Positions 15,013-35,244 of a stretch of 64,000 bases of DNA are shown here, piece after piece (positions within the stretch are counted from its first letter, which is position 1; each line of letters opens with the position of its first letter). Source of the DNA: Anaerolineaceae bacterium (GTDB taxonomy: Bacteria; Chloroflexota; Anaerolineae; Anaerolineales; Anaerolineaceae); the NCBI GenBank assembly GCA_016841365.1, contig JAENZI010000008.1, positions 1 to 64,000 of the forward strand. The letters are read 5' to 3'. A program made the position numbers and the translations under genes. The notes beneath the pieces were generated by a model. The model saw only the letters and a program-made list of their open reading frames with translations. It did not search any database and had not been told where the DNA came from.

Positions 15013-15041
15013 TTGACAGAAGGAGAAAACTATTATATATT
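15013..15041 (+). promoter_or_regulatory. Sigma-70-type promoter of the ABC transporter operon
   Basis: TTGACA at 15013-15018 and TATATT at 15036-15041 with exactly 17 bp between. Transcription would start near 15048 and give a leader of about 170 nt before the first permease gene. The surrounding gap 14781-15216 is very AT-rich and also has to hold the divergent MFS promoter, for which I see no clear boxes. Confidence 0.7.
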
Positions 15042-15046
15042 GGTTG

Positions 15047-15061
15047 TATATCAGTGATATA
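15047..15061. promoter_or_regulatory. Palindromic operator TATATCA-G-TGATATA
   Basis: A perfect 7+1+7 palindrome placed exactly on the expected transcription start of the 15013-15041 promoter, where a bound repressor would block RNA polymerase. Palindromes of this size suit a dimeric GntR/FCD regulator, such as the one encoded at 22419-23093 in the same gene series. The link is an inference. Confidence 0.5.
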
Positions 15062-15216
15062 TCATTCTATCAGTTTCATTTTATTTGTCAAGTTAACTAA
15101 ATGTAAATAAACATTAACATTCCCCATTGAAGCTTTATTGTTGCTTATTGGAAATAATTTATTAATGACTAAGTAATCAAACGCTAATTTCTATTACGAC
15201 ACCAGGAGACTCGCTT

Positions 15217-17069: not shown

Positions 17070-17074
17070 AGGTA

Positions 17075-18046: not shown

Positions 18047-18057
18047 GGAAAAACTAA

Positions 18058-19005: not shown

Positions 19006-19114
19006 GAAAGGAGAGAATTATTAGAAGATGAATTTTGTTTGATCTAAGGCTTTTGATTAGGAAATGAATAAAAAGTACACGAAATTCATATTAAGAACAA
19101 AAGGAGAAAATAAA

Positions 19115-20764
19115 ATGGCAAAAAAAATATTATATATTCTATTGACTGTGTTGTTGATATCCACACTTTCTCTCACTGCTTGTAAATCAGCAGAAGAACC
19201 TGTTGGGGAAGAACCTGTTGGGGAAGAACCTGCTGGGGAAGAACCTGCTGGGGAAGAATCTGCTGGGGAAGAACCTGCGGGAGATGAAGAAGAAGAGGAA
19301 TCGGAAGCAGTTAAGACAAGCGCGAAAGATGTGTTAGTTATAGGAAATATTAACGATGTAGGTACAATGGACCCTTATGGTGTATCTGCAATGCAGCGTG
19401 GTCGTGTCACAACGAACATCTATGACATGTTGTTCTTGATTACATCTACAGGTGAGTATATTCCACGGCTTGCAACAGATTGGGAGTGGACCGACGAGCT
19501 TCATGTTGTTTTTCATCTAAGGGAAGGTGTAGTATTCCATAATGGTGAAGAATTTAATGCAGAAGATGTAATCTTCACGTTGAATTACGCGGCTACCAAT
19601 GAAAACTGGGCGACCTACTTCACTAAAGTAGATCTCGAAAATTCAAAGGCCATTGATGATTTCACAGTGGAAATTGCATTCTCAGAACCGGACGGCATTT
19701 TTATGCCATCCTTGTCCATGGTGATGCCCATCCTGGATAAGACAACCACGGAAGCTGATCCAGAAGCGAAGGCGAATGGTGGCGTAGGTACTGGAGCGTA
19801 CAAGTTCGTTGAATGGATTACAGGCGATAGTGTTACATTAGAGCGGTTTGACGATTACTGGGGAGAACCCGCACCAATCAAAACAGTTATATTTAGGAGT
19901 ATCCCAGAAATTACTCAAAGATCCATCGAATTGCAGACCGGTGGTATTGATGTTGCCTATGATTTAGGTGCAACAGATGCTTTGACCATTGAAGAAGATC
20001 CTAATTTATCACTGCTTAGAATGCCTGGTCGTTGTGTTCACAATCTTCACTTCAATTCTTCAGAAGGACATGTGTTTGCCAATGAAGACCTAAGGAAAGC
20101 TGCCGCATATGCTATTAGTGCGGCGGACATTCTGCAGGGTGCATACGATGGCGCTGGGACGGTCGCTAACAGCTACTGCAGTAATGCGGTGCCTGGCTAT
20201 AACTACGATTTGACTGAAGAGCCTTACCCGCAAGATCTTGAGAAAGCCAAAGAGTATTTTGAAGCCTCTGGCGTTCCTGAAGGAACTAAGATCAAGATCA
20301 TTGTTGATGACCGTGCGTACCGTATTGCCACAACTGAAATTATTAAGAATCAGTTGGCGGCCATTGGATTAGATGCTGAAATCCAGCAATTTGACTTCTC
20401 AACTGGTTATGCTTATGCCCAGGATGTGACAAACGATTGGGATATTTACCCACTGGCACAATGCCAAAGCAATGCTTCAATGCAAGCTGCTAGATTAACT
20501 GATTCTGTTAAGTATGTTACGTTTCCTGATACACCTGCTGGAGCAGACATGTTAGCTCTAATTAGAGAGATCTTGTCTGAAACTGATGTGGATAAAGCCC
20601 AACAGATGAATGATGACCTTCAAGTAATGGTTAATGAGAGGCTTGCGCTTTATCCAGTTGCCCAAGCAGAAACTTTGTTTGGCTATAATGCAAAATTATC
20701 TGGAATGGACGAGGCAAATATCAACCAAACGATAATAGCCCAATACCTATATTTTGAACCATAA
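19115..20764 (+). CDS. Substrate-binding lipoprotein, SBP family 5
   Basis: A 549-residue solute-binding protein of the oligopeptide/nickel/opine family for the upstream transporter. I start it at 19115, not at the longer frame start 19064, because AAAGGAG lies 7 nt before this ATG and the protein then begins with a typical lipoprotein signal (MAKKILYILLTV, lipobox LTAC). After the Cys comes an acidic linker made of six 5-residue units (P-V/A-G-E-E), then the SBP domain with LVIGNINDVGTMDPYG, the hallmark GDSVTLERFDDYWG and the C-terminal lobe. It is the last gene of the operon and is followed by a strong hairpin. Confidence 0.92.
   Translation: MAKKILYILLTVLLISTLSLTACKSAEEPVGEEPVGEEPAGEEPAGEESAGEEPAGDEEEEESEAVKTSAKDVLVIGNINDVGTMDPYGVSAMQRGRVTTNIYDMLFLITSTGEYIPRLATDWEWTDELHVVFHLREGVVFHNGEEFNAEDVIFTLNYAATNENWATYFTKVDLENSKAIDDFTVEIAFSEPDGIFMPSLSMVMPILDKTTTEADPEAKANGGVGTGAYKFVEWITGDSVTLERFDDYWGEPAPIKTVIFRSIPEITQRSIELQTGGIDVAYDLGATDALTIEEDPNLSLLRMPGRCVHNLHFNSSEGHVFANEDLRKAAAYAISAADILQGAYDGAGTVANSYCSNAVPGYNYDLTEEPYPQDLEKAKEYFEASGVPEGTKIKIIVDDRAYRIATTEIIKNQLAAIGLDAEIQQFDFSTGYAYAQDVTNDWDIYPLAQCQSNASMQAARLTDSVKYVTFPDTPAGADMLALIREILSETDVDKAQQMNDDLQVMVNERLALYPVAQAETLFGYNAKLSGMDEANINQTIIAQYLYFEP
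19199..19288 (+). repeat. In-frame 15-bp tandem repeat in the lipoprotein linker
   Basis: Six consecutive 15-bp units (CCTGTTGGGGAAGAA and close variants) encode the PVGEE/PAGEE linker between lipid anchor and binding domain. Units one and two are identical, as are three and four; unit six is most diverged. Such a repeat can change copy number and so tether length without breaking the frame. Confidence 0.85.
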
Positions 20765-20773
20765 TCAGTACAC

Positions 20774-20805
20774 ATTCATCAGCTGGATTTATCCAGCTGA
20801 TGAAT
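20774..20805 (+). terminator. 15-bp perfect hairpin after the binding-protein gene
   Basis: ATTCATCAGCTGGAT (20774-20788) and ATCCAGCTGATGAAT (20791-20805) are perfect inverse complements with TT between. No U-run follows, so it may protect the 3' end of the binding-protein mRNA or partly stop transcription, allowing more binding protein than enzyme from one transcript. Confidence 0.55.
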
Positions 20806-20892
20806 GACCTTAGATTAAAAAGTCATTATTTGAGTCGGAATTATTAAAAAGAAGCTTTGTGTTCTAAATAATATTTTGTAAATGGAGGAAAG

Positions 20893-22401
20893 ATGGCATT
20901 GCTAAAGGCAAAGACAAAAAATGGATGGGTGGAAGGTCTGCCATCCAGCAATCAAAGAATAAGCATATTCAAAGGCATTCCATTTGCGGCACCGCCAGTA
21001 GGTGAGTTACGCTGGAAAGCCCCCCAACCGGTTAAATCATGGGACGGGGTTCGAACGGCTTATAAATTCGCAGATATTGCCATGCAGGAGCGATTTGCAT
21101 CTGAAGGCGGGAATGTATTTGCCCGTGATGAATTTTATGTACACGAGTACCCAATTAATGAAGATTGTCTTTATCTAAATGTATGGACACCGGCGAAGAC
21201 AGCCGACGAGAAGCTCCCGGTAGCAGTTTATTTTCATGGCGGCGGCTTCAGGACAGGCTACAGTTATTTGAATGCCTATGATGGGGATGGTTTTGCAAAG
21301 CGGGGCATGGTCGTGGTGACATTGGCTTACCGCTTGAACGTGTTTGGTTTTCTGGCACACCCGGAACTAACGGCAGAAGACCCGCATCACAGCTCAGGGA
21401 ACTATGGTCCATTGGATATGGTGGCTGGATTGACGTGGGTCAAGGAGAATATTGCGGCATTTGGTGGAGATCCAGATGATATTGGCATATTCGGTCAGTC
21501 GGCGGGGGGGATGAGTGTTCGTTTAATGAGTGCTACGCCATTGACAAAAGGAATATTCAAACGGGCAATCATTCAGAGCGCGGGTGGGTTGATGAGCTTT
21601 TCAAAAGAGCGTGACATTACATTATCTGAAGCAGAAAAGCAAGGTGAAGAGTTCTTTGATTTTATGGGTGTGAAAAACGTTGAAGAGGCCCGCAGGTTGT
21701 CAGCAGAACAAGTACTTGATGGGATGTGCCGGTTTGACAAGGAAGTGCATCGTTTCATGAATGCGCCGAATGCTGATGGGTATGTATTACCGCAAAAAGA
21801 AGTGGATCTATGTCGGCAAGGGTTACATCACGATATTGATTACATGCTGGGATGCACAAAAGATGAAATGGGACCAATGGGACCTGTGCCAAGTGCTGAA
21901 AAGATCAAGCAAGACGCCGCAGACATCTATGGCGAATCAGCAGCCAAATACTTGCAAATTGTAAAACCTGATAATAAGGAATTTTACGAAACAGAAGTTC
22001 ACAACACAGCTTTTCCCGATAGAATGCTTGCAGGGGTAAAGGGATTTTGTGAAGTACAAAACAAGCTGGAAAGAAAGCCAGCATTTATGTACTTTATTAC
22101 GCTTGTTCCGCCTGGGAATGAAGTTTCTTTTCATTCAGCAGAACACCAATATGTATTTCAAACGCTAGTACGATCCAGTCTTCCTTACACGGGTAGGGAC
22201 TATGATCTTTCAAACACATTGGCTGACTATTGGGCGAATTTTCTGAAAACAGGTGATCCCAATGGGGAGGGGTTGCCAAAATGGGAACCATATACAAAAG
22301 AGTCGCCAAAAGCTATGGAAATCAAATATGATCTTGAAATGATAACCGTTCCAGAGAAACCTCATGTGAAGTTTATGAAAAGTTTTGCTGTCAATGGATG
22401 A
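20893..22401 (+). CDS. Type-B carboxylesterase (PnbA-like)
   Basis: A 502-residue alpha/beta-hydrolase without a signal peptide, hence cytoplasmic. It has the family start FKGIPFAAPPVGELRW, the oxyanion loop YFHGGGF, and the nucleophile Ser203 in GIFGQSAGGMS. A probable acid residue lies in CTKDEMG and the catalytic His in FHSAEHQYVF, equivalent to the usual FHGAEL. The length is normal for the family. It hydrolyses carboxylic esters; in this operon it may release an acid and alcohol from the imported compound. GGAGG lies 7 nt before the ATG. The GntR gene follows 17 bp downstream. Confidence 0.88.
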   Translation: MALLKAKTKNGWVEGLPSSNQRISIFKGIPFAAPPVGELRWKAPQPVKSWDGVRTAYKFADIAMQERFASEGGNVFARDEFYVHEYPINEDCLYLNVWTPAKTADEKLPVAVYFHGGGFRTGYSYLNAYDGDGFAKRGMVVVTLAYRLNVFGFLAHPELTAEDPHHSSGNYGPLDMVAGLTWVKENIAAFGGDPDDIGIFGQSAGGMSVRLMSATPLTKGIFKRAIIQSAGGLMSFSKERDITLSEAEKQGEEFFDFMGVKNVEEARRLSAEQVLDGMCRFDKEVHRFMNAPNADGYVLPQKEVDLCRQGLHHDIDYMLGCTKDEMGPMGPVPSAEKIKQDAADIYGESAAKYLQIVKPDNKEFYETEVHNTAFPDRMLAGVKGFCEVQNKLERKPAFMYFITLVPPGNEVSFHSAEHQYVFQTLVRSSLPYTGRDYDLSNTLADYWANFLKTGDPNGEGLPKWEPYTKESPKAMEIKYDLEMITVPEKPHVKFMKSFAVNG

Positions 22402-22418
22402 TCTCAAGGTGAAATTAT

Positions 22419-23093
22419 ATGGAATCTAACTCAAAACAATTATTAAGCGATGTCGCTTACGAAGCGTTGAAAGAGAGAATAATTTCTCTTCCAGGTGGCA
22501 GTCATATCAGTATTAGACAATTTGCTGGTGAAGTTGATATGAGCTATACGCCCGTTCGGGAAGCCTTCCTGCGAATGGAACAAGAGGGGATCCTTAAATG
22601 GGTAGCAAATGTTGGATTCTTTGTAGAAACAATAGACATCACAGAAATCATTCAATTTTTTCAGGTTCGTGAATGTCTGGAAGTTTTTGTGCTTGAACAA
22701 GTGTTTGAGCAAATAGAAGAGCATCATATTGATGAAATGAAAACGATTAATGCAAAACAATATGAAGCTCTATCTAAAGGAAATATTAAGGAGTATCAGT
22801 CATTGGACCTGCAATTCCATGAGGTTATTTTTAGAATATATGGAAACAAGTTATTGCTTGAATTCTATCGTACTATCCGTGAGAGATATATGATCGTTTC
22901 TTCGAAAATTGGTAAATGGTTGAGCGATGAAGCGTTCATCGAACACACTGAATATTTCAATGGTCTAGAAACAGGAAACAAGGAAAAAGCAATTAAAGAA
23001 TTAAGTCAGCATATTAATAAGAACATGGAACGGATGAAAGAGGGCTACATTAACTTGATCATGGGAAATAGGCAATCTGTCACCATCAAATGA
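22419..23093 (+). CDS. GntR-family regulator with FCD ligand domain
   Basis: A 224-residue repressor-type protein. The winged helix-turn-helix occupies about residues 8-75, with ISIRQFAGEVDMSYTPVREAF as the recognition region and MEQEGILKW. The C-terminal helical FCD domain follows, with ECLEVFVLEQV and later LDLQFHEVIFRIYGNKLL. FCD proteins usually bind a carboxylic acid, often with a metal. As the only regulator of the island it is the best candidate to bind the palindrome at 15047-15061. Confidence 0.9.
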   Translation: MESNSKQLLSDVAYEALKERIISLPGGSHISIRQFAGEVDMSYTPVREAFLRMEQEGILKWVANVGFFVETIDITEIIQFFQVRECLEVFVLEQVFEQIEEHHIDEMKTINAKQYEALSKGNIKEYQSLDLQFHEVIFRIYGNKLLLEFYRTIRERYMIVSSKIGKWLSDEAFIEHTEYFNGLETGNKEKAIKELSQHINKNMERMKEGYINLIMGNRQSVTIK

Positions 23094-23142
23094 TCAAAAG
23101 GTTCTACTGGTGTGAATTAAATTTTGGAGTTAATAAGTAATA

Positions 23143-23361
23143 ATGGCAAAATTTATTGGATCAGGTGTTTTAAGTAAATTTAGCTGTGAAGTTGTTTTAA
23201 AAAGACCTATTGCTGCGGGTCAGATTCCGCAATTACTTGACATCCAAATACCCCTTGCCGAGCATGTGATCTTGGTTCGTGATCACCTTATGTTGCCTGA
23301 CGATCATATGGTTGATGATAATGATGAAATATTTCTATTTCTAGCAGTTATGGGCGGCTAG
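23143..23361 (+). CDS. MoaD/ThiS-like sulfur-carrier protein
   Basis: A 72-residue beta-grasp protein that ends exactly in Gly-Gly (FLFLAVMGG), the hallmark of ubiquitin-like sulfur carriers activated at the C-terminus. The segment MLPDDHMVDDNDEIFLFLAV matches the usual L-x-D-G-D-E-V-x-x-x-P-x-x-x-G-G ending of MoaD and ThiS. The nearby ThiF/MoeB-like enzyme (31272-32021) and the pterin-dependent aldehyde oxidoreductase (25123-26856) favour a role in assembling the metallopterin cofactor over thiamine. The ribosome site is weak (GGAG, 12 nt away). Confidence 0.72.
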   Translation: MAKFIGSGVLSKFSCEVVLKRPIAAGQIPQLLDIQIPLAEHVILVRDHLMLPDDHMVDDNDEIFLFLAVMGG

Positions 23362-23382
23362 CCCGGATATGAGGATGCAACT

Positions 23383-24066
23383 ATGGTACATGTCATAAAA
23401 AATATTAAAAGACCAACACCTGAGGTGGTAAAAGCGTTTAGTTTACTAGCTTCGGCAACAATCCATGAGGCTTCCGGAAAAAAAGGTTACATCGATTGTG
23501 ACATCAAACCAATCACCAAAGGACTAAAAGTGTGTGGCCCTGCACTAACAGTGCAATGCGCTCCTGGCGATAATATTATGCTTCACAAAGCACTAGAACA
23601 AGCAAAACCAGGCGATGTGATTGTGGCAAATGTCGGCGGTGGATATAAATACGGGTACTTTGGAGATCTCATGGCAACGAGTGCGATTGCACGTGGCGTA
23701 GGCGGTTTGTGCATTGATGGTTGCATCAGGGATAGTGCTGAGATCATCGAATCGGGTTTTCCGGTTTTCGCAAGAGGTTTTTGCATCCGAGGGACAAAAA
23801 AAGGCACAATAGGATTAATTAATTACCCAACTGTTTTTGGCGAGCAGACGATTTTTCCGGGTGATTTGATATTCGGGGACGATGATGGTTTAGTTGTGGT
23901 CAGGCTAGATGAGTGCACCGAAGTGCTTGAAAAAGCTGAAGCTCGGGTGAGAAAAGAAGTTGAAAAAGAAAAAGTTCTAAAAACCGGAGTTTCAAGTATT
24001 GAATTTAATAAGCTTGGACCTATCCTGGAAGACGCGGGATTGATTGAAGAACGGATAGCTAAATGA
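23383..24066 (+). CDS. RraA-like aldolase/lyase
   Basis: A 227-residue member of the RraA/HMG-aldolase family. Known relatives cleave 4-hydroxy-4-methyl-2-oxoglutarate or 4-carboxy-4-hydroxy-2-oxoadipate to pyruvate and decarboxylate oxaloacetate; others bind RNase E. Visible features are VANVGGGYKYGYFGDLMATSA, with the G-x-x-x-x-A-x-x-G substrate loop, and GLCIDGCIRDSAEI, which provides the conserved Arg-Asp of the active site. In this catabolic operon an enzyme role is more likely than RNase control. 16 bp after the stop the Ldh-family gene starts at 24077 (10 bp gap). Confidence 0.82.
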   Translation: MVHVIKNIKRPTPEVVKAFSLLASATIHEASGKKGYIDCDIKPITKGLKVCGPALTVQCAPGDNIMLHKALEQAKPGDVIVANVGGGYKYGYFGDLMATSAIARGVGGLCIDGCIRDSAEIIESGFPVFARGFCIRGTKKGTIGLINYPTVFGEQTIFPGDLIFGDDDGLVVVRLDECTEVLEKAEARVRKEVEKEKVLKTGVSSIEFNKLGPILEDAGLIEERIAK

Positions 24067-24076
24067 GGCTTTTTAC

Positions 24077-25126
24077 ATGAAGATTATCAAAGAAGCGCTT
24101 TTCGATGTTGTTGTTGAGATACTTGTTGCCTTAGGCGAGAATCCTGAGAATGCAAGAATTGTGGGTGATAATTTTTGTTTTGCCGATTCGAGAGGTATTA
24201 CAACTCACGGCAGCTATTTATTAACCCCTATTTACAAACGAGTAAAAGCCGATCAATTGACACTGCCAACCGAAACAAATACAGTAATTGATGAGGGCGC
24301 GATTTTTGTGATTGATGGTGGTGATGGGTTGGGACCTGTAGCTGGTCAAAAAGCTGTAGACATTGCAGTTGATAAGGCTTCCAGGTTTGGCATTAGCCAA
24401 GTTATGATCCGAAATACAAATAATTTAGGTTCTCTCGCGTTTTATACAGAAAGAATCGCAAAACAAGGCATGATTGGAGTCATGAGTTGTAATGCGGCCC
24501 CCGCTATGGCTCCTTGGGGTGGGGCAGAGCCTTTTACAGGTACAAATCCAATTGCTATAGCAATCTTTACTGGCAAGGACTTATTGTTTTCTGCGGATAT
24601 GGCAACGAGTGTCGTTGCAAGAGGAAAAATTCGAAAAGCTGCCCGTGAAAACAAATCGATCCCAGAAGGATGGGCCATCGATGTAGATGGCAATCCGACG
24701 ACTGATCCCAATACTGCTTTGATGGGAACGGTTCTCCCAATGGGTGGGGCAAAAGGATCGGCAATTGCCTTAGTCGTCGATATTGTTTCTGGAATATTAT
24801 CAGGTGCTGAACATGCACCTAATATTAAAAGTTTTCATTCTCCCCAAGGAAAGACTGGGATCGGGGCAACCCTAATTGCTATAGATATCAAGAAATTCAT
24901 TGCCGTAGATAAATTCACAGCCATCATGGAAGACTATATTCAAAATCTAAAAAGCATGAAAAAAGCTGAATTTGCCTCTGAAATTTTCCTGCCAGGTGAG
25001 ATTGAAAAAAACCGAGAGCTTGAAAGTGATAAGTCAGGAATAATCTTAATGGATGCTGCAGTTGATGTGATAAACCATTACCTGGATGAATTAGGCTCTG
25101 AAAAGAGATTGGAATCAAAAGCATGA
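24077..25126 (+). CDS. Ldh-family (malate/L-lactate/sulfolactate-type) dehydrogenase
   Basis: A 349-residue NAD(P)-dependent 2-hydroxyacid dehydrogenase of the Ldh_2 family, which has no Rossmann fold. SRGITTHGSYLL carries the catalytic His; GDGLGPVAGQKAVDIAVDKA and NNLGSLAFYTERIAKQGMIG are family blocks; the substrate loop ends GTNPIAIAIF. It oxidises a 2-hydroxyacid (malate, lactate, sulfolactate, ureidoglycolate are known substrates). Its last bases overlap the next start (ATGA), so translation with the aldehyde oxidoreductase is coupled. Confidence 0.88.
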   Translation: MKIIKEALFDVVVEILVALGENPENARIVGDNFCFADSRGITTHGSYLLTPIYKRVKADQLTLPTETNTVIDEGAIFVIDGGDGLGPVAGQKAVDIAVDKASRFGISQVMIRNTNNLGSLAFYTERIAKQGMIGVMSCNAAPAMAPWGGAEPFTGTNPIAIAIFTGKDLLFSADMATSVVARGKIRKAARENKSIPEGWAIDVDGNPTTDPNTALMGTVLPMGGAKGSAIALVVDIVSGILSGAEHAPNIKSFHSPQGKTGIGATLIAIDIKKFIAVDKFTAIMEDYIQNLKSMKKAEFASEIFLPGEIEKNRELESDKSGIILMDAAVDVINHYLDELGSEKRLESKA

Positions 25127-26856
25127 AAACGATTATTCGTGTAAATGTAAGAACAGGTGCCGCCAGAATTGAAGAAGCATCAAAGGATTTGCAAAGGATT
25201 GCAGGCCGTCACTTTATTGCGCACATTCTTAATAATGAAGTTGAACCGACTTGTGAGCCTTTGGGTCGGCATAATAAACTGATCATTTCACAAGGATTAT
25301 TTGCAGATACGAACATTTCAACGACTGGGAAAATCTCCCTTGGTGGGAAGAGCCCGCTAACAAACGGTGTCAAAGAGAGTAATACAGGTGGGTATTTTGG
25401 AAAGCGACTCACCAGGCTGGGAATCAAGGCTGTTATTCTTGAAGATATCCCAGATTCCTGCGCGCGTACACGTGTGTTGTATCTGGATAGTAATGGGGCT
25501 CAGATAATTGACACGCCTGATCTGCAATATAAATATGTGTCAGAGACATGTAAGCTGCTTCAGGAAAAGTTTGGCAAGAATATTGGCATTCTTTGTATCG
25601 GTCCTGCTGGAGAACGGTTAATGTTAAGCGCTGGCATTGCTTGCCCGGATAATGCCGGTGTCCAGATGCGGTATGCGGCGAGAGGTGGCTTAGGCGCAGT
25701 GATGGGTTCGAAGGGTATAAAAGCTATTGTGGTCAACGCTGATAAACTTGTGCCCCCTGAATTTATTGATCCTGATGAAGTAAATAATATTAGGAAGGAA
25801 ATCGCTGAATTAATTATCGCTGATCCCAAGAGTAATAATCGCAAGCTTTATGGCACACTTGATATTGTGGCAATGGCGAATCAAGTTGGCTTGATGCCAA
25901 CAAAGAATTTCTCGTCGGGTTCCTTTGAAGGTGCTAATAATTTTACCGGACCCGCTTTTTCTGAATTGGTTGCAAAACGAAGTGGATCAGGCCGAAGTGG
26001 CACGCCTTGTGTCCCTGGTTGTACGATCCAATGTTCTAATGTCTTACCGGCTGCGAATGGCGATCAGGTTGTTGCCTCTCTGCAGTATGAAAGTGCTGTG
26101 TTATTAGGACCAAACCTTTGCATTGAAGATGTAGATACTATCGGTGAATTGAACAACCTCTGCAATGAAGTTGGGGTTGACACGATTGAATGCGGTGCCG
26201 CCATTGGTGTAGCAATGGACTCAGGTGTTGCAGAGTTCGGCGATGGTCAAGCAGCAAAAGATATGATTATCCAAATTGGTGAAGGCACCTATTTGGGGCG
26301 AATTTTGGGAAATGGTGTCAAGTTCACAGGCCTGGCCTTTGGGAACCGCCGAGTCCCTGCAGTTAAGGGTCAGGCTATGCCGGCATATGATCCAAGAGGG
26401 TTAAAAGGGAATGGGGTCTTGTATGCCACATCAACAATGGGTGCAGACCATACAGCGGGTAATGCCTTTGAAACTATTAAGTATAACGATCCACTTGGCA
26501 AGCAAAACCAGGTTGCAAATTCCCGCCATCTTCAGATTAGAGGAGCGCTTCTGGATACCATGGGCGTATGTATTTTCCTCCGGCCATCATTTGTAAAAGA
26601 TCCAAATTTATTGGTTCGACTATTCAAAGCAAAATTTGGTTGGGAATTAACATTTAAAGAAATTAGGGAATTAGGTGCTCATATTTTGGACTTGGAGAGG
26701 GCATTTAATGAAAATGCTGGGGTTTCTGAGCACTATCAGAGAATTCCGGAATTCATGCGGGAAGAACCTTTGCCACCCAATAACGCTGTGTTTGATCTTA
26801 CTCAGGAAGAATTGGAAGCGATTTGGGATGTCCCAATCAGGACGGATTCCTTTTAA
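25123..26856 (+). CDS. Aldehyde:ferredoxin oxidoreductase, tungsten/metallopterin type
   Basis: A 577-residue AOR-family enzyme that oxidises aldehydes to acids with ferredoxin, or the reverse, using a tungsto-bispterin and one [4Fe-4S] cluster. The N-terminal domain has GKSPLTNG and GGYFGKRLTRLGIKAVILE; the pterin region has YAARGGLGAVMGSKGIKAI; cluster ligands are C296, C300 and C304 in TPCVPGCTIQC, and C483 in DTMGVCIF. The first spacing is C-x3-C-x3-C, not the C-x2-C-x3-C of Pyrococcus AOR, so it belongs to a different subfamily. No ferredoxin partner gene is adjacent. Cofactor supply may involve the local MoaD and ThiF homologues. Confidence 0.92.
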   Translation: MKTIIRVNVRTGAARIEEASKDLQRIAGRHFIAHILNNEVEPTCEPLGRHNKLIISQGLFADTNISTTGKISLGGKSPLTNGVKESNTGGYFGKRLTRLGIKAVILEDIPDSCARTRVLYLDSNGAQIIDTPDLQYKYVSETCKLLQEKFGKNIGILCIGPAGERLMLSAGIACPDNAGVQMRYAARGGLGAVMGSKGIKAIVVNADKLVPPEFIDPDEVNNIRKEIAELIIADPKSNNRKLYGTLDIVAMANQVGLMPTKNFSSGSFEGANNFTGPAFSELVAKRSGSGRSGTPCVPGCTIQCSNVLPAANGDQVVASLQYESAVLLGPNLCIEDVDTIGELNNLCNEVGVDTIECGAAIGVAMDSGVAEFGDGQAAKDMIIQIGEGTYLGRILGNGVKFTGLAFGNRRVPAVKGQAMPAYDPRGLKGNGVLYATSTMGADHTAGNAFETIKYNDPLGKQNQVANSRHLQIRGALLDTMGVCIFLRPSFVKDPNLLVRLFKAKFGWELTFKEIRELGAHILDLERAFNENAGVSEHYQRIPEFMREEPLPPNNAVFDLTQEELEAIWDVPIRTDSF

Positions 26857-26899
26857 TCAGAGTGAGTTATTAATATAAGTAAATTTTTAGGAGGTTTAT

Positions 26900-27265
26900 A
26901 TGTCAGGATTGAAATGGGTTGATATTAACGAGATTGAAGGGATTTATCGGGAACCCCCTCGCACTAGTTGGATCTTAGTGTCTGAAAAAACTGTTGGTGC
27001 ACAAAATCTGGCAGTGGGTGTTAATGAGACACATGTTGGGGGGAAGGTCCCAAAGCACAAACATATTTCAGAAGAGGAGGTAATGTTTTTCCTGCAAGGA
27101 AAGGGACAGTTTATTACTGAAGATGAAGTAATTGAATTGAAACCAGGGATATGTGTATATAACCCCCCAGGTTCATTTCATGAAATTATTAACACAGGCG
27201 AGGAAATCTTGAAATTTATTTGGATTTACTCACCACAATTAGAGAGTCATCGGATTGATAAATAG
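26900..27265 (+). CDS. Small cupin-domain protein
   Basis: A single-domain cupin of 121 residues. The metal-binding motif 1 is KHKHISEEEVMFFLQGKG (His, His, Glu) and motif 2 is NPPGSFHEIINTG (His). Such proteins act as isomerases, dioxygenases or ligand sensors. GGAGG precedes the ATG. It follows the AOR after 43 bp and precedes the creatininase-type gene by 21 bp, so it is in the same operon; the substrate is unknown. Confidence 0.8.
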   Translation: MSGLKWVDINEIEGIYREPPRTSWILVSEKTVGAQNLAVGVNETHVGGKVPKHKHISEEEVMFFLQGKGQFITEDEVIELKPGICVYNPPGSFHEIINTGEEILKFIWIYSPQLESHRIDK

Positions 27266-27286
27266 GTTAAATTAGAAAGGAAAATC

Positions 27287-28252
27287 ATGTCAAAATGGAA
27301 TTTGCCTCCTGAAGGTGGGCATTTAGATAAACCTTCGAAACTGTATTTTCAAACAATGACAAAGTTGGATATCGAGAATCGTCTTAAAGAAGATGATGTA
27401 ATTATCATCCCAATTGGGTCAATTGAAAATCATGGTAATTCAGGTCCGACGGGTGAGGACACCTTTATTGCGACACGGATCGCAGAACTGGTAGCAAAAG
27501 AGACAGGATGCACAATTGCTCCACCAGTATGGTATGGCTCCCATCCCTTCCATCATATTGGGCAGAAATACACAATTCCTTTACCGGATTATGTTTTCAT
27601 GGACCAATTAAGGGCCATTTTTACAGGTTTTTGGAATTCAGGCTTTCGTAAAATGATTTTGATTAGCATGCATGGACAGGAATATGCGATCCCCGTCGCC
27701 ATTCAGGAGTGGGGTAAGAGATATCAAGTTCCCGCTATGATTTTCTTTGTGGATATCCCCAATGTGATGGGGCAGACACTGATGGACAAAGAGCATGGTG
27801 GCCCTTACAATCGACACTTCCAGCATGCTTGCGAGGCAGAACAATCCATATCATTGAGTCTATTCCCAGAACTTTGTGACATGGAGCATGCAGAGAACAC
27901 AGACAGCCATGGTTATTTACCAGCGGGTCATATGGATAAAGGTGGAGATATTTATGGCAATCCGATCCCAGGACATTGCCAAATTGGTAATGTGGGTATC
28001 GAATGTATTACCTTCCCGCAGGGTGTGATCGGGCATGCAAAAGACGCAGATGCGGCTAAGGCTGTACCATCCATCGAGAAAATTTGTGATTATCTAGTGA
28101 AGCTGCATAACGACATCCTGGATGTTTTCCCTGTAGGTCAGTTACCGCCAGGTGATCTCATGAGCCAGCGCGATCCTGAAGAAATTGAGAAATTGCTCAA
28201 GGGTCCTTCAGATGGTGGAAAACATATCTACACACTCGCTTGGCCGTGTTAA
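27287..28252 (+). CDS. Creatininase-family hydrolase (IolN-like?)
   Basis: A 321-residue creatininase-family protein. The first metal motif is IPIGSIENHGNSGPTGEDTF (Glu, His, Asp); further elements are LISMHGQEYAIP, where most members have NGHGGN, and EAEQSISLSLFPE with a probable metal Glu. The family opens amide or beta-diketone rings: creatininase, FAPy deformylase, and the inositol-pathway IolN of Thermotoga. Flanking zinc dehydrogenases and a TIM-barrel isomerase favour the ring-opening option. The altered HGQEY motif means the exact reaction cannot be assigned. Confidence 0.8.
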   Translation: MSKWNLPPEGGHLDKPSKLYFQTMTKLDIENRLKEDDVIIIPIGSIENHGNSGPTGEDTFIATRIAELVAKETGCTIAPPVWYGSHPFHHIGQKYTIPLPDYVFMDQLRAIFTGFWNSGFRKMILISMHGQEYAIPVAIQEWGKRYQVPAMIFFVDIPNVMGQTLMDKEHGGPYNRHFQHACEAEQSISLSLFPELCDMEHAENTDSHGYLPAGHMDKGGDIYGNPIPGHCQIGNVGIECITFPQGVIGHAKDADAAKAVPSIEKICDYLVKLHNDILDVFPVGQLPPGDLMSQRDPEEIEKLLKGPSDGGKHIYTLAWPC

Positions 28253-28278
28253 TTTAATTTCTGGGAGGTTGCCAACAC

Positions 28279-29325
28279 ATGAATACTATGAATGCTTTGG
28301 TTTATTACGGTCCACATGATTTACGACTAGAGGATAGACCCATTCCATCACCTAAAAAGGGTGAAGTACTAATAAAAGTGAAAGCGGTATCCATTTGCGG
28401 GTCTGACTTAGGCGCTTATAGATTAGAAAGCATATCTGATCGTTGGCAACCTCCTATCATTCTAGGTCATGAATTCTCAGGAGAAATTGTGGAGCTAGGG
28501 GAAGGTGTTGAAGATTTTTCAGTTGGACAAGCGGTAACAGCTAATCCGATCCTACCGTGTGGAGAATGTTTTTATTGTAAACGCGGTGAAATTAACCTCT
28601 GCCCAAACCGTTCCAGTATTGGCACATCCATTGGTGGTGTAACCACTGATGGTGCGATGCGAGAATATATGACCCTTCCTGCTTATACTTTATATCCTCT
28701 GATGGAGGGTGTTAGTTTTATTGAAGGTGCACTGATGGAACCCCTGGCGGTGTCATATAGCGCATCGATGGTGGGGGATTTTGGGGAAAACGAAAGTGTC
28801 GCAATTATTGGTGCTGGTCCTATTGGGTTGATGATATTGAAATTCCTCGAGATGGAAAACAAGAAGAGGGTTTTCGTTTCTGATGTGATTGAAACTCGTC
28901 TTGATCTGGCAAAAGCTAATGGCGCAGATGAGGTCCTCAATGGAAAAGAAGACGTTGTAGCGATGATAAAAGATCTCACAGATAATGTGGGCGTTGATCG
29001 AGTCATCATTGCCGCGGGCGTTCCAGATATTTTCCTTAAATGTTTAGATATGATCAGAAACGGGGGAAGAATTGCGCTTGTTGCGTTGATTCATCACAGC
29101 TGTGAGTTCCCATTGATGACAGTCGTAGCCAGAGGAATCTCAATTCTTGGAAGTTATATGTTCTCGGATGAAATCAAGGATGTTATGGAAATTGTCGCTA
29201 GAAAAAAAATAGTAATTGATGATTTAATAACATCCGTACGCCCACTCTCGGAAGGTGTTGAAGTTTTCAATATGCTTTGTGACAAGGATTGCAAAGAAAT
29301 TAAAGTTATTCTGACAAATGATTAA
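28279..29325 (+). CDS. Zinc-dependent medium-chain dehydrogenase 1
   Basis: A 348-residue MDR alcohol/polyol dehydrogenase of the threonine/sorbitol dehydrogenase type. The catalytic zinc site has Cys in SICGSDLGAY and GHEFSGE; the structural zinc loop is CGECFYCKRGEINLC; the NAD site is VAIIGAGPIGLM followed by VSDVIETRLDLAKANGADE. The ending KEIKVILTND is shared with the next gene, so the two are paralogues. It probably oxidises a secondary alcohol of a cyclic or linear polyol. Confidence 0.9.
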   Translation: MNTMNALVYYGPHDLRLEDRPIPSPKKGEVLIKVKAVSICGSDLGAYRLESISDRWQPPIILGHEFSGEIVELGEGVEDFSVGQAVTANPILPCGECFYCKRGEINLCPNRSSIGTSIGGVTTDGAMREYMTLPAYTLYPLMEGVSFIEGALMEPLAVSYSASMVGDFGENESVAIIGAGPIGLMILKFLEMENKKRVFVSDVIETRLDLAKANGADEVLNGKEDVVAMIKDLTDNVGVDRVIIAAGVPDIFLKCLDMIRNGGRIALVALIHHSCEFPLMTVVARGISILGSYMFSDEIKDVMEIVARKKIVIDDLITSVRPLSEGVEVFNMLCDKDCKEIKVILTND

Positions 29326-29397
29326 TAACTAATATTGGCAGATTATCCATTCAAACAATGATTATTTAATAAATTTTGGACTAAAAAGGAGATCTCT

Positions 29398-30429
29398 ATG
29401 AAAGCCTTGGTATTTTATGGTGCGGGTGACATTCGTTATGAAGAAGTCGAGACACCAAAGCCCTCAGCTGGTGATGTCTTGGTTAAGGTGAAGGCTGTAT
29501 CAATTTGTGGTTCCGACCTGGCAGGATATCGGGGCGGCAATCCCATGCGCGTAGGCCCATTAATCATGGGGCATGAGTTCGCCGGAGAAGTTGCAGAGTT
29601 GGGTGAGGGTGTTACCAACGCGAAGATTGGAGATAAAGTTAGCGTTTACACAAATCTGTTTTGTGGAGAATGCGCAGCATGCAAAGCTGGATTAACCAAC
29701 ATTTGTGATAATCGTTATATTATTGGCACCACCATGAAAGCTGGAAGCTACAATGGTGCTATGGCTGAATATGTTCTTGCTCCAGCCGATAAATTACTAC
29801 CACTATCTGGTAAGCGCACTTTTGCACAATATGCTTTGGCTGAACCCCTTTCAACAGGTTTGCGTGCAATTCGTCGAGCAGGTGATATCTCAGGAAAAAC
29901 GGTTGCTGTGGTGGGATGTGGTCCGATTGGCTTATTGACAATTATGGCTTTGAAGCATTTTGGGGCTAAAGTAATTATCGCTACTGATGTAATTGATAAG
30001 CGCCTGGAAATGGCGAAAGAATGCGGTGCGACCCATATAGTTAATTCAAAAGGTGATTTAGTGGCATTCATCCACGAAGTAACAGATGACGTAGGCGTGG
30101 ATATTTTGTTTGATGCAGTCGGTATTCAATCGACTGTTAACCAAGGTCTGGATATTGTCCGTTTAGGCGGAGAAGTCATTTGGGTCGGTTTAGCTCAAAC
30201 CAAATTTGAATTCGAATATAAACATGCAGCAGTCCGGGAATTGACTTTTAAAGGTGTTTACTTATATATCACGGAGATGGAAGAAGGTATTGAGCTTATT
30301 GAAGCAGGCGCTATTCCTGTAGAAAAGATCATTACAGCTGAATATCACATGAGTAAAGGTCCACGGATTTTTGAGGATCTGGTTTCTGGATTCGCAAAAG
30401 ATATCAAAGTAATTTTGACGAATGACTAG
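29398..30429 (+). CDS. Zinc-dependent medium-chain dehydrogenase 2
   Basis: A 343-residue MDR paralogue of the preceding gene, 72 bp downstream. Catalytic zinc residues are in SICGSDLAGY and GHEFAGE; the structural zinc loop is CGECAACKAGLTNIC; the nucleotide site is VAVVGCGPIGLLT. Two sequential dehydrogenases fit a pathway where a keto and then a diketo intermediate is formed. AAGGAGA lies 8 nt before the ATG. Confidence 0.9.
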   Translation: MKALVFYGAGDIRYEEVETPKPSAGDVLVKVKAVSICGSDLAGYRGGNPMRVGPLIMGHEFAGEVAELGEGVTNAKIGDKVSVYTNLFCGECAACKAGLTNICDNRYIIGTTMKAGSYNGAMAEYVLAPADKLLPLSGKRTFAQYALAEPLSTGLRAIRRAGDISGKTVAVVGCGPIGLLTIMALKHFGAKVIIATDVIDKRLEMAKECGATHIVNSKGDLVAFIHEVTDDVGVDILFDAVGIQSTVNQGLDIVRLGGEVIWVGLAQTKFEFEYKHAAVRELTFKGVYLYITEMEEGIELIEAGAIPVEKIITAEYHMSKGPRIFEDLVSGFAKDIKVILTND

Positions 30430-30450
30430 TAGTTGAGAAAAGGAAAAGAA

Positions 30451-31239
30451 TTGAATCCCAAGATTAGTGTGTTCGGTTTTTCAAAAGATATCGATAAGAT
30501 TGCGGCAGCGGGATACGATTGTATTGAAATGCACATGCATGAAATTATGTCAATGAGTAAGTCGGAGTTCAGCCAAACCAGACAGAAGCTTGCTGATTCA
30601 CCGCTTAATTGTGAAGTACTTGACAATCCCATTCCTTTGGATAAGGTTATCGCAGATGAGGGCTTTGATCTGGAGTTCTATCGAAATTACCTGACGATTG
30701 GGGTGGACCGCGCTGCGGAATTGAATGTGAAGTATTACATCTGGGGTAATGGAAAGACTCGCAGCATCCCGACATCAGGAGAAATTGAAGCTGCCAAAGC
30801 AAAGACTTTTAACTTCATGGAAATGCTTGCGGATATTACGAATGAAAGAGGCATCACAGTTTTGATTGAACCTCTTTCACCCCAGGTTTCAAATATCATC
30901 CACAGCATACCTGAAGCGATCGATTTTGTTTCAAAACTTGGAAAACCTAATCTTGGTACGTTTATTGATTATCGTTGGTTTGTGGACCGTAACCATCCCT
31001 ATTCCATGATTGATGAGTATGCGGAAGAGATCAAGCATGTTCATATCGATAACCCCGACATGCCTTTTCCAACCCGTTTAGCACCTCGAGATGATGATGG
31101 CCATGACTATTCAAAATTCTTTGATGCATTGAATAGAATCAATTACGACAAGATCATTTCCATTGAAGCAAGCACATTCACAGACTACGAAAAAGATCTG
31201 CGAAACAGCTTGTTGTTTATTAGAAAAATGTGTATTTAA
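30451..31239 (+). CDS. Sugar phosphate isomerase/epimerase-like TIM barrel
   Basis: About 262 residues of the AP-endonuclease-2 superfamily. I place the start at TTG 30451, with AAAGGAAAAG just before it; the longer frame start (TTG 30433) has no ribosome site and touches the previous stop. Metal-binding residues appear in order: Glu in VLIEPLSP, Asp and His in GTFIDYRWFVDRNHP, His in IKHVHIDNPD, and Glu near the C-terminus in IISIEASTF. Family members interconvert keto-sugars and keto-acids; the Thermotoga inositol pathway uses a relative (IolO). Substrate not assignable from sequence alone. Confidence 0.82.
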   Translation: MNPKISVFGFSKDIDKIAAAGYDCIEMHMHEIMSMSKSEFSQTRQKLADSPLNCEVLDNPIPLDKVIADEGFDLEFYRNYLTIGVDRAAELNVKYYIWGNGKTRSIPTSGEIEAAKAKTFNFMEMLADITNERGITVLIEPLSPQVSNIIHSIPEAIDFVSKLGKPNLGTFIDYRWFVDRNHPYSMIDEYAEEIKHVHIDNPDMPFPTRLAPRDDDGHDYSKFFDALNRINYDKIISIEASTFTDYEKDLRNSLLFIRKMCI

Positions 31240-31271
31240 GGATAGTCTTCCATGAAAAGGAAATTTCTAAC

Positions 31272-32021
31272 TTGAATCACTTAACTTCAAATGAAGCAAT
31301 AAGATATTCAGACACAATCTCAATCCCTGAAATAGGATTGAAGGGCCAAGAAAAGCTCAGATCATCATCTGCCCTTGTCGTGGGATTGGGTGGTTTAGGC
31401 TCAGTTGTCGCTTTATATCTATCTGCTGCCGGCGTTGGACGGCTTGGATTAATGGATGGTGATTTGGTTGCTCTCTCTAATCTACAACGTCAGATACTTC
31501 ATCGAACTTCTTCCTTAGGTTCGATGAAAACAGTCTCTGTCTACCACGAATTGTCAGATTTAAACCCGAATATTCAGTTAGAAACTTATCAGGAATTCAT
31601 TACAAAAGAAAATGCAAACCAATTTATCGCTGGATATGATGTGATTGTGGGGTGCACAGACACATATTCCAGCTACTTATCGATCAATGAGGAAAGTGTA
31701 CGTTTAAAGAAACCATTTGTATTTGGAACCGTAAGCCGGTTTGAAGGGCAGGTTTGTGTTTTTAATGCGTTGGAAGGTCCATGTTATAAGTGCGCATTCC
31801 CCAAAGTAACTGCGGATTCTGATAAAACTTACCCTTATAAAGGAATATTCAGCCCTGTTCCAGGGGTGATTGGATCAATTCAGGCGAGTGAGTGTCTTAA
31901 ATTACTGATTGGCATAGGATCGCCATTGATTTCGAGGCTTTTCATATATGACTCGCTTGAGATGTCTGCAAATGTAATCCAGATTATTAAACAGCCAGAT
32001 TGTCCTGTTTGTAGTCATTAA
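31272..32021 (+). CDS. ThiF/MoeB-like carrier-activating enzyme
   Basis: About 249 residues of the E1-like family that adenylates the C-terminal Gly of MoaD or ThiS. The likely start is TTG 31272, with AAAAGGAAA upstream; the frame runs 14 codons further up over the end of the previous gene. Signatures: ALVVGLGGLGS for ATP, DGDLVALSNLQRQILH (the D-x-V-x-x-S-N-L-x-R-Q block), and two zinc-binding pairs, CYKC and CPVC. No rhodanese domain is fused. The nearby MoaD-like protein ending in Gly-Gly is its obvious partner; the pair is separated by seven genes in the same operon series. Confidence 0.86.
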   Translation: MNHLTSNEAIRYSDTISIPEIGLKGQEKLRSSSALVVGLGGLGSVVALYLSAAGVGRLGLMDGDLVALSNLQRQILHRTSSLGSMKTVSVYHELSDLNPNIQLETYQEFITKENANQFIAGYDVIVGCTDTYSSYLSINEESVRLKKPFVFGTVSRFEGQVCVFNALEGPCYKCAFPKVTADSDKTYPYKGIFSPVPGVIGSIQASECLKLLIGIGSPLISRLFIYDSLEMSANVIQIIKQPDCPVCSH

Positions 32022-32280
32022 AATAATTCTCTTCTGGCGGGTTACTTGTCCATGCTTCCTGTAGAAGCTTAATGAAAATCATTATGAACGGATTCCATGA
32101 TTGTGGTTCTTTGTGATGATATGTCAAAGAGAAATTACTATCAAATTAAAGAAAAAATATACATCTTTCAACTGATAAAGTTCTATTTATACAATATATG
32201 TGAGGATTAACGACAACAAAAAATATTAATCCGAAACTTTCTATGGGTTGCATATTAAAGAATAAGGAAATCAAATTTTC

Positions 32281-33531
32281 ATGGAAGAAAACCAGGCGAA
32301 TTACATCGCAGTAAAAGTTGCAAAAGAAAAAATTTTTACAAATAGTTTCTTAAAAATTATGATCGCAGATTTAACGATTAAGATCACTTTTTCAATGCTC
32401 AATGTATTAATACCAATCTATATGCTGGACCAAGGATATTCAACGGCTATTGCCGGCTTGGTTACGACAATTTATTTATTGTCTGCGGCTGTATTTAGGC
32501 CGATATCCGGGATTCTTGTAGATAAGAAAGGCCGTTTCCTAATCATCACGATTGGCTCGGTCGTATATAGCCTTGCTGCAGGCTTATATTTATTTTCAAT
32601 TCCGTTTTGGGTATTGATACTAATCCAGGTGCTTCAGGGTTTTGGATTTGCTTTTAATGGAACGGCTTTACGAACATTGGCTACTGACAATATTCCAGAG
32701 AGTAGGATGTCAGAAGGCCTGGGATATCTGGGTTTGACTCAGACACTTTCTTCATCTATTTCACCATTGATCATACTGGCGGTCAGGAATGCATTTGGAT
32801 ATCATGTCGCATTTATTGTGGTACTTTCTTTTACGGCATTAATTCTCCTCTCACGATTTTGGTTGAAACCATCGAAAGAACAAGCACAAGCAGATCGCCT
32901 GGGTTTACAAAACGAGTTGAAAATATCAAAAAAATCAGACCAGAAACCTTTTTTCCTTTGGAAGCTAATTGACAAAGAAGCATGTAAACCTTCTCTGATT
33001 ATGATGGTCATGATGTTTACAAATAGTACGTTAATGACTTTCTTGGTGGCATATTCATCGGAAAAAGGCATAGAAAATGCAGGTATATTTTTCACGGCAT
33101 CAGCGATAATGACTGCTGTAGCCCGCCTGCTTGTGGGGAAAGTACACGAGAAATTTGGCTCGGTAGGTGTTATTGCACCAGGGATTTTCTTTTTTATCAT
33201 CAGCTTAATTATTGTCTTCTCAGAGTTGAGCATTCCTACACTAGCACTTGCTGGGGCTTTGTCGGGTCTAAGTATTGGCGTTATCTTACCACAGGTAAAT
33301 TCATTGGCTGTCCTTAATTCGAATAAAGAGAATCGGGGGTTAGCAAATTCAACATTATTTCTGGAGATGGACATAGGTTTTGCGCTTGGTGCAGTGATCT
33401 GGGGATCCATCGCAAATGTAACAGGACTTCGATATATCTATATAATTGCCGCAGCTGTCTCGTTTACGATGTTGGTGCTTTATTTTATTTTACGAAGATC
33501 AGATTTTTTTGGAGAGAAAAAAGCAGCTTAG
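32281..33531 (+). CDS. MFS transporter
   Basis: A 416-residue, 12-TM transporter unlike the OFA pair. Motif A lies in GILVDKKGRFLII, and the second half has RLLVGKVHEKFGS at the matching position. A charged loop of about 25 residues (about 198-222) separates the halves. The 259-bp gap before it has a possible weak promoter (TACAAT near 32192 with a poor -35) and a small hairpin GCTTC-CTGTA-GAAGC near 32054. Substrate unknown; it may export or import an island intermediate. Confidence 0.82.
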   Translation: MEENQANYIAVKVAKEKIFTNSFLKIMIADLTIKITFSMLNVLIPIYMLDQGYSTAIAGLVTTIYLLSAAVFRPISGILVDKKGRFLIITIGSVVYSLAAGLYLFSIPFWVLILIQVLQGFGFAFNGTALRTLATDNIPESRMSEGLGYLGLTQTLSSSISPLIILAVRNAFGYHVAFIVVLSFTALILLSRFWLKPSKEQAQADRLGLQNELKISKKSDQKPFFLWKLIDKEACKPSLIMMVMMFTNSTLMTFLVAYSSEKGIENAGIFFTASAIMTAVARLLVGKVHEKFGSVGVIAPGIFFFIISLIIVFSELSIPTLALAGALSGLSIGVILPQVNSLAVLNSNKENRGLANSTLFLEMDIGFALGAVIWGSIANVTGLRYIYIIAAAVSFTMLVLYFILRRSDFFGEKKAA

Positions 33532-33621
33532 AAGCAATAAGACTTTGTAGTAACTTTGATCGATCACTTTTGGTTTTACATGTATTACTGAATTAGATAA
33601 AAAGGCAGATGGAGAAACGTT

Positions 33622-35184
33622 ATGTCTAATTACTTGCCTGAATGGCTTGATTCGATTGGCATTTTGAATAACTCGTCAATATTTCACAATCCCTCGAGAT
33701 CAGAACTGGTTACCCAAGCCCTCCTTAATAAGGAAGGTGAATTAACTTATGATGGCGCGTTAGTAACTATCACTGGTCAATGCACCGGCCGTTCGCCTGA
33801 TGATAAGTATATTGTCAACAATCGAAATAGAACTGATTTATGGTGGGGAGATGTAAACAAAGAAATCTCGCCAGATTCATTCGATCAATTAAAAAACCGT
33901 ATTACTGCTTATCTCAGCAATCGTTACTTATATGTCGTTGATTGTTTCATCGGTGCTGATACCGATTATCAATTATCTGTTCGTGTAGTTACAGAGTTCG
34001 CCTGGCAAGCACTGGCTACACAAAATCTATTCATTTACGATCAGAATTTGGATCATCAAAAACCAGACCTAGTCATTCTTGCTGCTCCTGACTTTAAAAC
34101 AAGCCCCGTTATCGATAAGGTCTGCTCGCAAGTTGGGATTTGCATAGACCTGGATGAGAAACTTATCCTTGTTGCTGGCTCGAAATACTTTGGTGAAATA
34201 AAAAAATCTGCATTTACGGTCATGAATGCCCTTTTACCGGATTCGGATGTGCTACCAATGCATTGTTCAGCCAATGTTGGTATCGATGGGGATGTCACAC
34301 TTTATTTTGGCCTTTCAGGTACAGGAAAAACTACCCTTTCCTCTACACCAGATCGAAAATTAGTAGGTGATGATGAGCATGGTTGGGGCGAAAATGGAAT
34401 CTTCAATTTTGAGGGCGGTTGTTATGCAAAGACAATCCATTTACGGAAGGGTCTAGAACCCGTTATCTGGAAAGCAGCCAACCAATATGGCAGTGTGTTG
34501 GAAAATGTTGTCCTTTCAAATGATGAGAAAGTCCCCGATTTTGATGATGCCAGTTTCACAGAAAATACTCGAGCAGCTTATTCCCTTTCCAAAGTTGATA
34601 AAATCGTTCCAGGGGGCATGGCAGATCATCCCTCAAACATCTTCTTTCTTTCTGCAGATGCTTTTGGCGTTATGCCGCCAATTGCCAAGTTAGACCAGGA
34701 CCAGGCTGTGTACTATTTCCTATCCGGATACACATCAAAAGTTGCTGGTACAGAGCGTGGGTTAGATAGATTGCCAACAGCAACTTTTTCAACCTGCTTT
34801 GGCGAGCCTTTCTTGCCTCTCAAGCCAAATGTCTACTCTGAGCTCCTGCGAAAGAAAATATTCCAAAATAAAACTAATACTTGGCTCATTAATACTGGTT
34901 GGACTGCGGGAGGCTTTAACAACGGCTATCGAATGCCGCTCCCTTATACGCGCCGAATGGTCACATGGGTCCTGAATAGCGAACATCTGGGCGCTGAATA
35001 TCATATTGATCCGGTGTTTAATCTTGCTGTTCCAAACGAAATTTCAGGTATCCCGGAAGAGATCTTATATCCTATAAAAACCTGGCAGGATTCAAAGGAA
35101 TTTTCTCGAATTGCAAATCAATTAAGACGCAGCTTTGATGAAAATGCGAAGAAATTCGAAAGTTATTTACTAATGCCTTTGTAA
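33622..35184 (+). CDS. pckA: Phosphoenolpyruvate carboxykinase (ATP)
   Basis: ATP-type PEPCK, 520 residues, close to the usual length. It interconverts oxaloacetate + ATP and PEP + CO2 + ADP. Signatures: the substrate Arg in TGRSPDDKYIV, HCSANVG (His of the Mn site), the kinase loop GLSGTGKTTLS near 230-240, the LVGDDEHGW motif with Mn-binding Asp, FNFEGGCYAKTI, and the nucleotide site in SKVAGTERG. All catalytic residues are visible. Within an acid-degrading island it can either conserve ATP in the carboxylating direction or feed gluconeogenesis. Confidence 0.96.
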   Translation: MSNYLPEWLDSIGILNNSSIFHNPSRSELVTQALLNKEGELTYDGALVTITGQCTGRSPDDKYIVNNRNRTDLWWGDVNKEISPDSFDQLKNRITAYLSNRYLYVVDCFIGADTDYQLSVRVVTEFAWQALATQNLFIYDQNLDHQKPDLVILAAPDFKTSPVIDKVCSQVGICIDLDEKLILVAGSKYFGEIKKSAFTVMNALLPDSDVLPMHCSANVGIDGDVTLYFGLSGTGKTTLSSTPDRKLVGDDEHGWGENGIFNFEGGCYAKTIHLRKGLEPVIWKAANQYGSVLENVVLSNDEKVPDFDDASFTENTRAAYSLSKVDKIVPGGMADHPSNIFFLSADAFGVMPPIAKLDQDQAVYYFLSGYTSKVAGTERGLDRLPTATFSTCFGEPFLPLKPNVYSELLRKKIFQNKTNTWLINTGWTAGGFNNGYRMPLPYTRRMVTWVLNSEHLGAEYHIDPVFNLAVPNEISGIPEEILYPIKTWQDSKEFSRIANQLRRSFDENAKKFESYLLMPL

Positions 35185-35244
35185 CTTTGGATTTTATATA
35201 CATTTGTTTACTTAAATTTCCCTACATAGAACTGGAGGCTGCAA

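Follow-up and report, generated by a model that had tools for sequence, protein, structure and literature searches.

A ubiquitin-like sulfur-carrier-like protein and a MoeB/ThiF-like E1 linked to a tungsten-type aldehyde oxidoreductase in an Anaerolineaceae genus without detectable MoaE

Is the pterin cofactor of a tungsten-type aldehyde oxidoreductase (AOR) supplied with sulfur by a carrier protein and an adenylating enzyme (E1) encoded in the same gene run? The question is raised by a locus in an Anaerolineaceae bacterium (GCA_016841365.1, contig JAENZI010000008.1; genome of 2.86 Mb in 19 contigs, 98% complete), of which positions 1 to 64,000, the whole 64,000-nucleotide stretch analysed, are called the window below. 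A first-pass annotation had proposed that a 72-residue protein ending in Gly-Gly and an E1 with ATP, R-Q and zinc motifs form a dedicated sulfur-transfer pair for an AOR with its Cys ligands. All three are present, on the same strand and in one gene run:

23143..23361, + strand: predicted ubiquitin-like (beta-grasp) sulfur-carrier-like protein, WorX/AorD-like, 72 aa, C-terminal Gly-Gly
25123..26856, + strand: AOR-family (tungsten-type) oxidoreductase large subunit, 577 aa, no accessory subunit genes adjoining
31230..32021, + strand: MoeB/ThiF-like E1 (adenylating enzyme), open frame beginning at 31230 (GTG), with 31272 (TTG) as the other possible start

We consider, with a probability of roughly 0.6, that the pair is a sulfur relay for the pterin cofactor of the AOR; the confidences attached to this reading and to the alternatives discussed below overlap slightly and need not sum to one.

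Judged from its sequence, 25123-26856 is an AOR/WOR-family enzyme of a single large subunit, matching AFOR_N at 175 bits and AFOR_C at 222 bits (cut-offs 29.8 and 27). The four Fe-S cysteines, the pterin motifs and the catalytic residues all align to 1aor with two variations, a C-x3-C-x3-C spacing in place of C-x2-C-x3-C and a D to N change in the first pterin motif (NEVGVD); the distal Cys is kept, in DTMGVC, as are the catalytic Glu and His positions. No AorA/AorC-like gene was found in the AOR cluster, and the FAD subunit and polyferredoxin genes of the aorABCDE type are absent between 15 and 37 kb of the window. A single large subunit with a ThiS-like carrier and an E1 in the same operon-like run is the layout of Class I WORs.

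The E1 has a ThiF domain (233 bits) and keeps GLGGLG, NLQRQ, equivalents of MoeB R73, Lys86 and Asp130 and four zinc Cys (two CxxC), which are the ATP and zinc contacts of MoeB-type enzymes. It has neither a rhodanese domain nor a Cys at the MoeB Cys187 position. The equivalent of MoeB Arg14, the arginine finger, is Asp, but a suspicion that the enzyme might be inactive for this reason was dropped as the finger is reported to be non-essential in MoeB and ThiF (PMC13139853). Its scores lie below the MoeB equivalog level (TIGR02355, 205.9 against 376.6; PRK05690, 253.1 against 266), and it is therefore named MoeB/ThiF-like only.

The C-terminus of the carrier reads MGG, which is weak evidence alone, two of the 180 window open reading frames (ORFs) of 55-130 aa ending in GG; it has no Pfam or NCBIfam match at standard cut-offs, its Pfam ThiS match falling short at 15.7 bits (cut-off 22.5, E 0.023), and a phmmer search of the PDB returned a meaningless match only. 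Among 279 window ORFs it alone is hit by a profile (14 bits, E 8e-4) constructed from the carriers of other AOR loci, profile-profile comparison with the carrier family gives a probability of 93%, and an ortholog of 46% identity sits at the corresponding place of the operon in genome G121. The AlphaFold2 model is a beta-grasp with a mean predicted local distance difference test score of 87.7, whose best Foldseek match is the sulfur carrier TtuB (5ztb, E 2e-4), followed slightly lower by MoaD (1fm0_D, E 1.7e-3). Taken together, the predicted fold, the match to the profile and the conserved Gly-Gly make a solid case for a ubiquitin-like sulfur carrier. The predicted ubiquitin-like fold and the free C-terminal Gly-Gly are those expected of MoaD, but since a MoaE partner was not found in the genome we do not class the protein as MoaD.

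The association of the three genes was followed in relatives by surveying AORs in 147 family genomes and reading 39 loci from the group with 37-68% identity, a comparison of AOR neighbourhoods that the first-pass annotation had suggested and in which the carrier recurs. An ORF matching the carrier profile lies within 4.5 kb on the AOR strand at 34 of these loci and on the opposite strand at none of the 39. The carriers of some of these loci were part of the profile, and an independent, profile-free count therefore matters: ORFs of 60-130 aa ending in GG were found on the AOR strand at 28/39 loci and on the other strand at 5/39. Within the genus, a full-length E1 is encoded in eight of 16 genomes and adjoins an AOR in six of the eight (G000, G002, G003, G005, G007 and G011); in three of those six the carrier gene separates the AOR from the E1. 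All six genus genomes with an AOR match in the family survey have a full-length E1, compared with two of the ten others (Fisher p 0.0035). Of the AOR-carrier-E1 locus of G007 and G011, G004 retains at the equivalent site just the E1, without AOR or carrier, and this E1 no longer has its C-terminal zinc CxxC. The E1-AOR link is thus strong within the genus, the repeated pairing in relatives of AOR with carrier and of AOR with E1 is far from chance, and the link between carrier, E1 and AOR is real.

Other proteins recur at the surveyed loci. Many encode a second ThiS-like protein, probably AorE (L027:6881-7279, L031:10792-11199, L034:7060-7443 and others), which is longer, at about 130 aa, and has a PYQYR...HH tail in place of the Gly-Gly end; a 205-aa ORF in L040 resembles a fusion of both carriers. 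Between the carrier and E1 of two AOR loci lies a 420-aa Radical SAM/SPASM protein (L031:6561-7823, L038:6461-7723), a candidate AOR maturation enzyme.

Composition also ties the three genes together. They lie in a low-GC island, which is real by the GC content at third codon positions (GC3), and the GC3 of the carrier (0.30) and of the E1 (0.34) is that of the island, so that both probably arrived together with the AOR. Apart from the AOR operon the island holds two MFS genes, an oligopeptide-type ABC transporter, a further MFS gene, PEPCK and a metallo-beta-lactamase-fold gene. The island and the remaining genes of the run are as follows:

12102..36186: low-GC island, GC3 0.30-0.42 against 0.53-0.67 in flanking genes
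20893..22401, + strand: carboxylesterase-family protein, 5' of the regulator and within the same island
22419..23093, + strand: GntR/FCD regulator, first gene of the conserved block and predicted as the likely operon regulator
23383..24066, + strand: RraA-like / 4-carboxy-4-hydroxy-2-oxoadipate aldolase family, above the NCBIfam cut-off
24077..25126, + strand: Ldh_2 family dehydrogenase, with a 4-base overlap with the AOR start
26900..27265, + strand: Cupin_2 protein
27287..28252, + strand: creatininase-family hydrolase
28279..29325, + strand: zinc alcohol dehydrogenase family protein 1
29398..30429, + strand: zinc alcohol dehydrogenase family protein 2
30433..31239, + strand: xylose isomerase-like TIM barrel protein, overlapping the E1 start
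36465..36851, + strand: Mutator-family transposase fragment at the right island edge

Ten genes, from the GntR regulator (22419) to the E1 (32021), run in the same direction behind the carboxylesterase gene with intergenic gaps of -10 to 72 bp, an order and spacing compatible with a single transcript. Promoter and terminator scans gave results at chance level only, and no molybdenum cofactor (Moco)/tungsten riboswitch was found in the window. The closest relative for the AOR cluster is an Anaerolineaceae metagenome-assembled genome (MAG), from a scan of genome contigs that returned one locus. Creatininase-family and cupin genes also adjoin AORs 44% identical to that of the window in three other loci (L049, L050 and L051), which suggests a conserved AOR-creatininase-cupin pathway with no assigned substrate.

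Does the genome hold another such pair? The only ThiF-family protein and the only detectable carrier that it encodes are both in the AOR cluster, which leaves no separate pair for housekeeping: a search for a second moaD and moeB detected none, and no other ThiS-like protein that could be a better partner of the E1 was found in the genome. The further suggestion of the first-pass annotation, that the cofactor of the AOR would be made independently of the host housekeeping pathway, fares badly. MoaE was found neither in the window genome (E up to 1) nor in its 15 genus relatives, MoaC and MoeA likewise went undetected in the window genome, which is 98% complete, and no complete cofactor pathway was found, MoaA not having been searched genome-wide. 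The suggestion is therefore wrong as put, and no molybdopterin synthase is known to which the island pair could deliver sulfur.

This gap is not peculiar to one assembly. AFOR-family genes occur in 13 of the 16 genus genomes and MoaE in none, while MoaC and MoeA are confined to two (G005 and G014). The same three-gene gap is seen in five other near-complete genus genomes that keep AOR-family genes; those at least 95% complete with AFOR-family genes and no MoaC, MoaE or MoeA are G000, G006, G009, G010, G012 and G013, of which G010 is in two contigs and G012 and G013 (97-98%) are in 8-9 contigs. In G005 and G014, moeA-moeA-moaC-moaA-MOSC-mog and tungstate-transporter genes form one block, and in G005 this cluster adjoins genes whose order is kept from 59963 onward in the window, where the cluster is absent.

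Moco-type blocks with two moeA, a MOSC domain and tungstate ABC transporter genes were seen in four genomes (L066 in G014, L067 in G005, L068 in G029 and L069 in G030), most of them also containing moaC, moaA and mog and none of them moaE or moaD-moeB; MoaE is absent elsewhere in these genomes too, and all four carry AFOR-family genes. A second AOR-family gene, of 644 aa, belongs to an extended cluster together with Hdr-like, MvhD-like and 4Fe-4S genes (L005:7360-17191, contig G000:C17), which is kept in most genus members, including ones without E1 or any detected moa gene.

From these observations we propose that the single-subunit, AOR-family tungsten-type enzyme may act in a catabolic pathway, and that the WorX/AorD-like carrier and MoeB-like E1 would act on its cofactor. 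The E1 would adenylate the C-terminal glycine of the carrier, a cysteine-desulfurase-type donor would convert the adenylated carrier to the thiocarboxylate, and this would pass its sulfur to the pterin cofactor of the AOR. As MoaE, MoaC and MoeA were not found, the sulfur acceptor has no identified candidate; the pterin backbone might come from unrecognised genes or from outside the cell, or might not be supplied at all.

Several observations weigh against this relay. With no MoaE, MoaC or MoeA found, the canonical sulfur acceptor is missing; the carrier is diverged and lies four genes from the AOR; its top structural match is TtuB, a tRNA-thiolation carrier, and not MoaD; and the E1 has its nearest relatives in the compared set (44.6%) at loci that have no AOR in the vicinity. 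An E1 lies within 8 kb at only three of the 39 related AOR loci, and the orthologous G121 cluster (L046) has none, as far as the contig reaches. Missing from that cluster and from most related loci, the E1 is no fixed partner but the variable half of the pair. What stands of the proposal that the AOR has its own sulfur-transfer pair is that carrier, E1 and AOR belong together, by shared island and recurrent linkage; the E1 as a general companion of such AORs does not.

The alternative that survives best, though we regard it as doubtful, is that the island entered a host without a molybdopterin pathway, so that the AOR is cofactor-less or binds something else and the pair is a passenger. The low GC and transposase remnant of the island would fit such an arrival, as would the presence of the AOR cluster in a single genome among the 16 of the genus and in one more of the family, the failure to detect MoaC, MoaE and MoeA, and the missing moa cluster at the window site syntenic with that of G005. 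Every island frame is intact, however, and the block is conserved at 46-77% identity in a second genome, which suggests selection; the AOR motifs are likewise intact, and the persistence of Hdr-linked AORs genus-wide without MoaC or MoeA would be odd if they were useless. A wider possibility, which we hold to be unlikely, is that AORs of the genus are activated without a canonical molybdopterin synthase, either through MoaE-independent sulfur transfer to a pterin precursor by the AOR-linked carrier and E1 or by unrecognised genes, or with a scavenged or different cofactor.

It is less probable still that the pair makes another sulfur product, be it tRNA 2-thiouridine as with TtuB/TtuC, cysteine or thiazole, and adjoins the AOR by chance. 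TtuB is the best fold match of the carrier, the relatives closest to the E1 in the compared set come from loci with no AOR close by, and ubiquitin-like proteins (Ubls) of Thermococcus kodakarensis serve both the tungsten cofactor and tRNA thiolation (PMC11323500), but chance adjacency is hard to square with AOR-carrier and AOR-E1 linkage that recurs in relatives. Thiazole synthesis was set aside: the genome has no true ThiG but only partial matches of 27-31 bits in proteins of about 300 aa, a 30-bit one covering profile positions 148-225 of 247 only, with thiamine importer-like and pyrophosphokinase-like genes nearby. That a moa cluster sits in the unassembled 2% of the MAG, with the pair acting as MoaD and MoeB in an ordinary pathway, is also quite improbable, for although the assembly is in 19 contigs and the single-block arrangement in G005 and G014 means that one gap could hide the cluster, those two genomes also lack MoaE, as do all 16 in the genus, the well-assembled G010, G012 and G013 likewise lack MoaC, MoaE and MoeA, and the cluster is not at its syntenic site.

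The relay for the AOR cofactor thus remains the reading that we prefer, and the locus is a useful one in which to pursue it. AOR-linked carrier and E1 genes are known, though in bacteria their exact role is unproven, and a genome with no other carrier or E1 in evidence and no molybdopterin synthase leaves little redundancy to mask an effect. With moaC, moaE and moeA missing, the cofactor source of the AOR becomes a testable question, and the genus a clean and replicated example of orphan tungsten-type enzymes, with AOR genes and no MoaC, MoaE or MoeA. Either a new cofactor route exists or the AORs of the genus work without the usual cofactor, and both can be tested.

The locus type itself is already known; the missing molybdopterin synthase across the genus is the part that deserves follow-up. 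The cofactor-supply idea is not new, as Iyer, Burroughs and Aravind (2006) described AOR-MoaD-MoeB neighbourhoods and proposed that they supply the tungsten cofactor (PMC1779556). As in the window, a MoaD-like gene is there tied to an AOR, often with MoeB, but in their cases the genes are strictly adjacent and some organisms have a Moco operon apart from them, neither of which is found here (PMC1779556). Close in layout are the characterised Class I WORs with worX (ThiS-like) and thiF beside them, such as CsWOR87 of Cetobacterium somerae (Putumbaka 2026; PMC13328260), which share with the window a single large AOR subunit, a ThiS-like protein, ThiF and no accessory redox subunit. Unlike in CsWOR87, the carrier and E1 of the window mark the two ends of a catabolic block of ten genes, the carrier is below the Pfam cut-off, and MoaC, MoaE and MoeA are undetected in the genome. 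The aorABCDE operon of Aromatoleum aromaticum also joins an AOR to MoaD-like genes, of which there are two, AorD and AorE being seen as W-cofactor maturation factors (Arndt 2019; PMC6365974), whereas the window lacks its FAD subunit, polyferredoxin and second MoaD-like gene. In T. kodakarensis, mutants show that Ubl proteins act in tungsten-cofactor synthesis, UblB (TK2118) sharing an operon with the E1 TK2117, and TK1065 lying beside an AOR (PMC11323500); this is an archaeon with several carriers of overlapping function, whereas the window genome has one carrier only. Finally, cofactor-dependent enzymes without a complete cofactor pathway, or orphan molybdoproteins, are a recognised puzzle (Peng et al., 2018; PMC6147048), but the organisms concerned mostly carry DMSOR and XO family enzymes, whereas here it is the AOR family that is orphaned, across a whole genus and in near-complete genomes.

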